A DNA stretch of 64,000 nucleotides from Sporopachydermia quercuum. Taxonomy: Eukaryota; Ascomycota; Sporopachydermiomycetes; Sporopachydermiales; Sporopachydermiaceae. The position numbers and the translations under genes are program-made. How positions within the stretch are numbered: position 1 is the stretch's first letter; each line of letters starts with the position of its first letter. The stretch spans positions 868,346-932,345 of the forward strand of contig BCGN01000004.1 in NCBI GenBank assembly GCA_001599295.1, given 5' to 3'. The notes under the pieces are model-generated. The model saw nothing but the letters and a program-made list of their open reading frames with translations, had not been told where the DNA came from and did not search any database. Shown here piece after piece: positions 16,771 through 17,922 of the stretch.

Positions 16771-17267
16771 CGCCAGAAATCTGCTTTTAAGTATAGTATA
16801 GAATAATGAAATCCTAATTTATTAATCAAGTTCCTCTTTATTTTTTCGCTCCGTAAGTCATGAATGTTTCACTTTAAATCACGATCTGTCCTTTATATAA
16901 AACTCTGTTGTGTGATACAACGTTTATTGCCTTTCTCAGTCATAAATCTATACTTTCATGCTATAGAACTTATTTCATCAGACTTGATGATCATTAGACA
17001 AATCAGTTAGTGTATGCCTTTTAACGATTATGTAATCATAAAAGGTGTTGATATTTTCGTGATTGAAATTACTCAAGCTTCTCAGTACATCTTGTCACTA
17101 ACCCACAAAGGCAAAATGTCGACAGAAAATAGGAAGTGATTGAAAAATATGAAAATNACAAACTCTGACCCCACCTTATATCTGAGGAAGGCCAAACGAT
17201 CGAATATGAGGTATTGGTAATTTTNAAATATTCAGACCTTGAAATAATAAATTAATAACACGACAAA
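16771..17267. promoter_or_regulatory. Intergenic region upstream of EGD1
   Basis: About 500 bp between genes in the same direction. It should contain the 3' end of the SVL3-like gene and the EGD1 promoter. I recognise no specific element. Single Ns lie at 17157 and 17225. Confidence 0.45.
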
Positions 17268-17922
17268 ATGGTTGTTGATACTGAAAAACTTGCCCGATTA
17301 CAAAAGGCTGCTGCCGCTGCTAGAATTGGTATGTAATGAGATTTTAGGAAGCGATGTGATTGGGAGTAATTGGCAGACATTAATATATATCATGAATTAT
17401 ATTTATACTAACAAACAATAAAACAGGGTATGGAAGAATTGAAGACGATTATTTATGAACCAATTTTTGAATTTTGAATCAAATTACTAACTTTGAAACA
17501 GTGGTAAGGGTACACCAAGAAGAACCGTTAGAAAAGCCGGCCAAGGAAATGCTGTCGATGACAAGAAGTTACAAGCCACTTTGAGAAAGTTGAATGCTCA
17601 AAACATCCCTGATATTCAAGAGGCCAATTTCTTCCAAGACAACGGAAAAGTTATTCATTTCGACAGAGTTGCTGTGCAAGGAGCTGTTACCAGTAACACC
17701 TATGGTTTCTACGGTAAGGGTGAAGAAAAGGATATTGCTGAACTTGTACCTGGTATTTTGACTCAATTAGGATCTGAATCTCTTGATGCTTTAAGAGTTT
17801 TGGCCGAACAAATGCAAGCTCAACAAGCCGCTGCTGGTGCCACTGGTGAAACCAAGGAAGCCGGTGATGAAGAAATCCCTGAACTTGTTGAAGGTGAAAC
17901 CTTCGAAGACAATGTCGAGTAA
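17268..17922 (+). CDS. EGD1: Nascent polypeptide-associated complex beta subunit (BTF3/NACb)
   Basis: A 160-residue protein (yeast Egd1: 157). It heterodimerises with NAC-alpha and binds emerging chains at the ribosome exit tunnel. Exon 1 (17268-17328) encodes MVVDTEKLARLQKAAAAARI plus one G. The last exon (17502-17922) begins with T then GGTAAGGGT. The conserved ribosome-binding motif RIGGKGTPRR, followed by RRTVRKAG, is only produced if one extra G is supplied. A single G at 17427 lies between two complete introns, 17329-17426 (GTATGT, TACTAAC at 17406, CAG) and 17428-17501 (GTATGG, TACTAAC at 17485, CAG). The NAC domain then runs KVIHFDRVAVQ to LVPGILTQLG, and the tail ends IPELVEGETFEDNVE as in the family. 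The protein identity is certain; the one-base exon is the unusual part. Confidence 0.93.
17329..17426 (+). other. EGD1: EGD1 intron 1
   Basis: 98 nt, donor GTATGT, branch TACTAAC at 17406-17412, acceptor AAACAG ending at 17426. Splicing it alone brings exon 1 next to GGTATGG, creating the full donor of the next intron after one G. Confidence 0.8.
17427..17427 (+). other. EGD1: Single-nucleotide exon of EGD1 (inferred)
   Basis: The only G left between the CAG acceptor at 17426 and the GTATGG donor at 17428. It completes the Gly codon GGT together with one base from each neighbouring exon, restoring RIGGKG. Confidence 0.65.
17428..17501 (+). other. EGD1: EGD1 intron 2
   Basis: 74 nt, donor GTATGG, branch TACTAAC at 17485-17491, acceptor AAACAG ending at 17501, ten bases after the branch site. 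Confidence 0.8.

Follow-up and report, generated by a model that had tools for sequence, protein, structure and literature searches.

A candidate one-nucleotide exon in the EGD1 gene of Sporopachydermia quercuum and a second case in a beta-tubulin paralogue

Can a single nucleotide stand as an exon between two introns of a yeast gene? The question is raised by EGD1, which encodes NAC-beta, a chaperone protein associated with the ribosome, and which occupies positions 17268-17922 on the plus strand of the window (the whole stretch of 64,000 nucleotides analyzed here), with its ATG at 17268. Exon 1 stops in phase 1 and the last exon resumes in phase 2, and translation confirms the original prediction that the frame is shifted when 17329-17501 is removed as a single intron. 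As had also been predicted, the interval is made up of two complete introns of 98 and 74 nt, each with its own donor, TACTAAC, and AG, with exactly one base, G17427, between them. The features of the locus are as follows.

17268 to 17328, plus strand: EGD1 exon 1, 61 nt; ends in ...AGA ATT G, phase 1, the first G of a glycine codon (from sequence and translation)
17329 to 17426, plus strand: EGD1 intron 1, 98 nt; begins with the donor GTATGT (17329-17334) and ends in ...AAAACAG, the last base of the acceptor CAG being 17426
17406 to 17412, plus strand: branch site TACTAAC of intron 1, 14 nt before the intron end
17427, plus strand: candidate one-nucleotide exon G, standing second in the glycine codon G|G|T; no other frame-keeping mini-exon was found between the fixed outer sites
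17428 to 17501, plus strand: EGD1 intron 2, 74 nt; begins with the donor GTATGG and ends in ...GAAACAG, the last base of the acceptor CAG being 17501
17485 to 17491, plus strand: branch site TACTAAC of intron 2, 10 nt before the intron end
17502 to 17922, plus strand: EGD1 last exon; starts with T, the third base of the split glycine codon (phase 2); NAC domain; stop TAA

The split glycine codon of EGD1

The exons joined with G17427 encode a protein of 160 amino acids that starts MVVDTEKLARLQKAAAAARIGGKGTPRR and has no internal stop. Its assignment to NAC-beta (EGD1/BTF3) is based on an RIGGKG segment followed by a NAC domain; the Pfam NAC match has an E value of 1.1e-19, and PDB chains named BTF3 match at 1.2e-32. 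The best database match comes from the filamentous fungus Myriangium (57%); that of Geotrichum candidum stands at 56%. When G17427 is omitted, or when either intron is retained, a stop is met after 22 to 47 residues.

The split codon falls within the sequence RIGGKGTPRR, and the proposal that the G restores a conserved RIGGKG is borne out by the homologues. In a scripted alignment of the best 120 of 779 homologues, the first of the two glycines that flank the junction is kept in 119/120 and the second in 120/120. A text search of these best 120 of 779 found RIGGKG exactly in 99 and RTGGKG or RVGGKG in a further 5, the remaining 16 having no form that was looked for.

Alternative ways of splicing the interval were enumerated. 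With donor 17329 and acceptor 17501 fixed, we listed every mini-exon lying between an AG and a GT that leaves introns of about 40 nt or more and keeps the frame to the true stop; exactly one was found, and it is G17427. Single GT-AG introns near the same sites gave eight open solutions, with RIGGKG kept in none. The only serious single-intron solution is one absent from the original prediction, in which an overlapping donor at 17333 (GTAT^GTAATG, inside GTATGTAATG) is joined to the acceptor at 17501. This reading stays open to the correct EGD1 stop and gives RIGIGKG, with one inserted isoleucine; it keeps the frame but not the motif, for the insertion would fall inside a nearly invariant segment of NAC-beta, and the conserved frame needs G17427. 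Judged from its sequence, EGD1 would have two ordinary U2-type introns separated by the candidate one-nucleotide exon G17427, and we place the probability of this reading at roughly 0.9.

A second split glycine codon in a beta-tubulin paralogue

The one-base exon reading of EGD1 is strengthened by the existence of a second case in the same genome. It is found at the 5' end of a divergent beta-tubulin paralogue (L004 on contig C1, G000:C1; also in L040) that is 61% identical over residues 50-421 to the presumed main beta-tubulin of this genome. In the coordinates of L004, its features are as follows.

1356 to 1392: exon 1; ends in GCA G, phase 1
1393 to 1524: intron 1, 132 nt; GTATGT, TACTAAC, TTAG
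1525: candidate one-base exon G, within the codon of Gly13 (GCA-G|G|A-AAT), phase 1 to phase 2
1526 to 1784: intron 2, 259 nt; GTATGT, CACTAAC, CTAG; followed by A AAT CAA

When the G is included, the paralogue reads MREIISVQCGQAGNQVATAFW, which rebuilds QAGNQ and is gap-free at the junction against its best PDB match, beta-tubulin 5w3f_B; when it is left out, the sequence reaches a stop after 22 residues. Both donors are perfect GTATGT, and the case is free of the weakness that GTATGG brings to EGD1. The site was found via a splice-pattern search, and hence its splice signals are not independent evidence, whereas the frame mismatch is. With the outer sites fixed, enumeration yielded 21 frame-keeping mini-exons; among these, the G alone has CTAAC within 45 nt upstream, and it alone keeps QAGNQ. 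Of the open single-intron solutions, which number 14, none keeps QAGNQ. An automatic intron finder proposed a single intron with the same outer donor and acceptor, translated from a later, out-of-frame ATG; this model was rejected, as five residues would take the place of the conserved first 13, MREIISVQCGQAG, although it still stands as a contrary reading.

The two genes together bear on both ways of explaining the interval with one intron. A donor shifted by +4 is available in any GTATGT, the last two bases of which are GT, and is thus a general rival; in the tubulin paralogue the shift gives QAGINQ, which is also in frame. The shifted donors, GTAATG and GTGATT, lack a G at donor position 5, and each would face competition from a perfect GTATGT located 4 nt upstream; the gap-free alignment of the tubulin has no place for the extra residue, and the inner intron structures would become a coincidence in both genes. 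We consider splicing from the shifted donor highly improbable.

The other explanation, already raised in the original prediction, is a base lost from a GGG in the assembly, such that exon 1 truly ends in GGG and a single intron spans the interval. The EGD1 frame would equally be restored by one more G at 17328-17329, and the assembly of the window is imperfect, containing 30 scattered single Ns. None of these, however, lies within the split interval (the nearest are at 17157, 17225, and 18176), and an assembly error would leave the inner TACTAAC..AAACAG|G|GTATG unexplained. The tubulin paralogue would moreover have to be missing one base as well, in the same sort of position and with the same inner structure, and this account has now become very unlikely. 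As an observation on the assembly itself, isolated single Ns recur about every 2 kb, at 30 positions of the window (such as 17157 and 17225), and are possibly masked heterozygous sites.

Splice signals and short exons across the genome

The genome searched comprises 16.4 Mb in 12 contigs, and the window has a G+C content of 35.7%. The pattern TACTAACN{3,25}AGN{0,5}GTATG occurs genome-wide at 31 places, compared with 31 in the reversed control; 30 of the 31 were tested, one on C11 being left out. Versions of the pattern restricted to a single base are rarer than their controls (5 versus 20, 9 versus 20, and 21 versus 36), and since the controls yield more matches than the genome itself, one-base exons form no large class by the pattern CTAACN{2,28}YAG(N)GTAWG. 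The juxtaposition of acceptor and donor is itself unenriched; what sets the EGD1 site apart is its position within an interval that breaks the frame, which the site restores.

All 30 listed CTAACN{2,28}YAG(N)GTAWG places (9 + 21) were submitted to a codon model, as micro-exon versus ordinary exon. The tubulin paralogue (103.0 versus 3.5) and EGD1 (67.0 versus 10.6) alone among the 30 are far better as micro-exons; L062 also favors the micro-exon model, but its score is meaningless (2.3 versus -6.3). Only 3/30 places could be scored as micro-exons at all, the other 27 having no micro-exon score and 14/30 having neither score. The test requires an ATG-open frame upstream and, neither of them farther than 500 nt away, a donor of a listed type and a second branch site. 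Because it has these blind spots and covered the listed donor classes only, the two cases are a lower bound.

The second donor of EGD1 is its weak point. Whereas GTATGT..TACTAAC..YAG is strongly enriched in the genome (153 versus 18 in the reversed control, some introns being counted twice on account of two acceptors), GTATGG..TACTAAC..YAG is not clearly enriched genome-wide (14 versus 11 in the control), and GTATGG is the donor of 0/26 introns predicted by the codon model in 229 kb. GTATGG is thus rare at best as a donor in this genome, which weakens the case.

Other very short exons seem to be used in the genome. The presumed main beta-tubulin gene, with several introns near its start, has a 14-nt exon in the segment that encodes GAAFW, flanked by two of these introns (L052 909-922, by eye). 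On the minus strand of L017, in what we take to be a Rho-type GTPase gene, a 19-nt exon (TGGCCAAGAAGAGTATGAA) completes the AGQEEYE motif, also by eye.

Several further candidates for one-base exons were set aside. L017 has its 19-nt exon instead (by eye); L043 is ordinary and L022 has an ordinary exon, both by eye; L005 fits an ordinary intron; and L048, the gene for EF-1alpha, is ordinary, with an exon that starts GGTAAG. The nearest proteins of usual length to this EF-1alpha are those of Geotrichum galactomycetum, Ambrosiozyma monospora, and Lipomyces orientalis, at 94%. Together with the TACTAAC branch sites, these proteins suggest a budding yeast of an early-diverging lineage or one of its near relatives. 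On the minus strand of L013, two closely spaced TACTAAC sites with GTATGT donors were seen within a short gene, the start of which may read MSSQFFNKAKNFVFSKDFVK.

The origin of the intron pairs was also considered. The 173-nt EGD1 interval is single-copy in the genome, and the idea of a mobile introner was set aside. Introns 1 and 2 of EGD1 align with a similarity score of 35, reached by 11/300 shuffles, and the tubulin pair with a score of 28, reached by 50/300; the scores of the four cross-gene intron pairs were reached by 7, 43, 13, and 14 of 300 shuffles. Similarity within a gene is no greater than that between genes, and an origin of either pair by duplication is not claimed.

Splicing order, known one-base exons, and significance

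The original prediction left the choice between a one-base exon and a nested, stwintron-like arrangement. Under the one-base exon reading, each intron would be defined across itself by its own donor, TACTAAC, and AG, and recognition of the exon would be unnecessary. Because the AG|G|GT common to both introns could not serve the two at once, they would have to be removed one after the other. The order cannot be read from sequence; we think that intron 1 of EGD1 is somewhat more often the first to leave, because transcription completes it first and its donor is the better of the two. Its removal would bring exon 1 plus the G directly before GTATGG, after which intron 2 would leave and RIGGKG would be restored. 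Pairing of donor 1 with acceptor 2, that is, skipping of the G, would be a dead end: in both EGD1 and the tubulin paralogue, the skipped form has an early stop, and such forms would be expected to feed nonsense-mediated decay. Both the splicing of EGD1 via the one-base exon and its order are inferences of ours.

Stwintrons, which are known in the yeast genus Lipomyces and in filamentous fungi, consist of two abutting U2 units that are excised in consecutive reactions, with a proposed origin from one longer intron (PMC7138796). In the EGD1 interval, likewise, one U2 intron unit adjoins another, with consecutive removal proposed. In a stwintron, however, the inner intron splits the donor (or the branch site or acceptor) of the outer one, two steps clear the entire interval, and nothing is left between the parts (PMC7138796), whereas both EGD1 donors are intact in the unspliced sequence and one needed coding base is retained. 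Net loss of 17329-17501, which joins 17328 to 17502, breaks the EGD1 frame. The chance that the interval is a stwintron is therefore practically negligible, and of the two arrangements first considered the one-base exon, with its second case in tubulin, is the best reading. The ratchet points of recursive splicing in flies are another relative, as an acceptor adjoins a donor and removal is stepwise (PMC8605326), as proposed for EGD1; a ratchet point leaves nothing in the mRNA, whereas the one-base exon reading of EGD1 keeps one base.

The exon junction complex blocks donors near fresh junctions (PMC6224609). A gene for Mago nashi, a core component of this complex, is present in the genome (L079 and L080, G000:C5:1228261-1228845) as two separate parts, which suggests an intervening intron, and loss of the complex as a simple enabling condition was rejected on this ground. 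To our knowledge, Saccharomyces lacks Mago nashi. Because the complex blocks nearby donors and the Mago nashi gene has been kept, the reverse splicing order and a weak exon junction complex are live alternatives. The UPF3 family was not found in the genome, nor was it found in 14/14 control genomes, and its absence from the search results is hence no evidence.

That one-base exons are very rarely reported, as the original prediction had it, holds insofar as the known list is very short; they have nonetheless been published in plants and in Fusarium, and EGD1 and the tubulin paralogue would add to this rare known kind. The closest parallel is the single-nucleotide exon of CYP621A in Fusarium, described in 20 orthologues (the paper's discussion counts 24 genes) with RNA reads from two species (PMC12940212). 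It shares with EGD1 the AG|G|GT context, the single G, the passage from phase 1 to phase 2, the position as the middle base of a conserved glycine codon, and the fungal, spliceosomal setting (PMC12940212); it differs in gene and lineage and in being documented by RNA reads, whereas the EGD1 exon is predicted from DNA. In plants, one-base exons have been described in APC11 of Arabidopsis (PMC4674806) and, as 1-nt microexons of APC11 and VPS55, across land plants (PMC8831610), with backing from RT-PCR and RNA-seq (PMC4674806, PMC8831610). As in EGD1, one base lies between two full introns and was missed by standard annotation, and for APC11, too, intron definition and stepwise removal were proposed; according to the authors, a purine or a pyrimidine made no difference in APC11 (PMC4674806, PMC8831610), whereas EGD1 and the tubulin paralogue both use G. 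A one-base exon has also been described in the mitochondrial cox1 of placozoans (PMC5436844). Among the titles and abstract openings found for open-licence papers on one-base exons, stwintrons, EGD1 introns, and Saccharomycotina microexons, none describes a one-base exon in a budding-yeast nuclear gene. Work on splicing in Yarrowia (PMC2911113) and on how stwintrons are gained and lost (PMC5639578) proved not to concern one-base exons.

EGD1 and the tubulin paralogue would then look like the first one-base exons of a budding-yeast-like organism, two of them in one genome, and genes of this class are likely to be mis-framed by automatic annotation. A broader reading, which is speculative and which we doubt more than we credit, is that one-base exons are recurrent and overlooked in this yeast lineage, originate again and again at glycine codons divided as G|G|N, sit in housekeeping genes, and may double as on/off control of the supply of NAC-beta and tubulin. 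Recurrence at G|G|N codons would follow because G suits both acceptor and donor, and a control point could arise because skipping yields an early stop. The two cases would bring the question of how the spliceosome handles one-base exons within reach of laboratory yeast, to which such small genes can be transferred.
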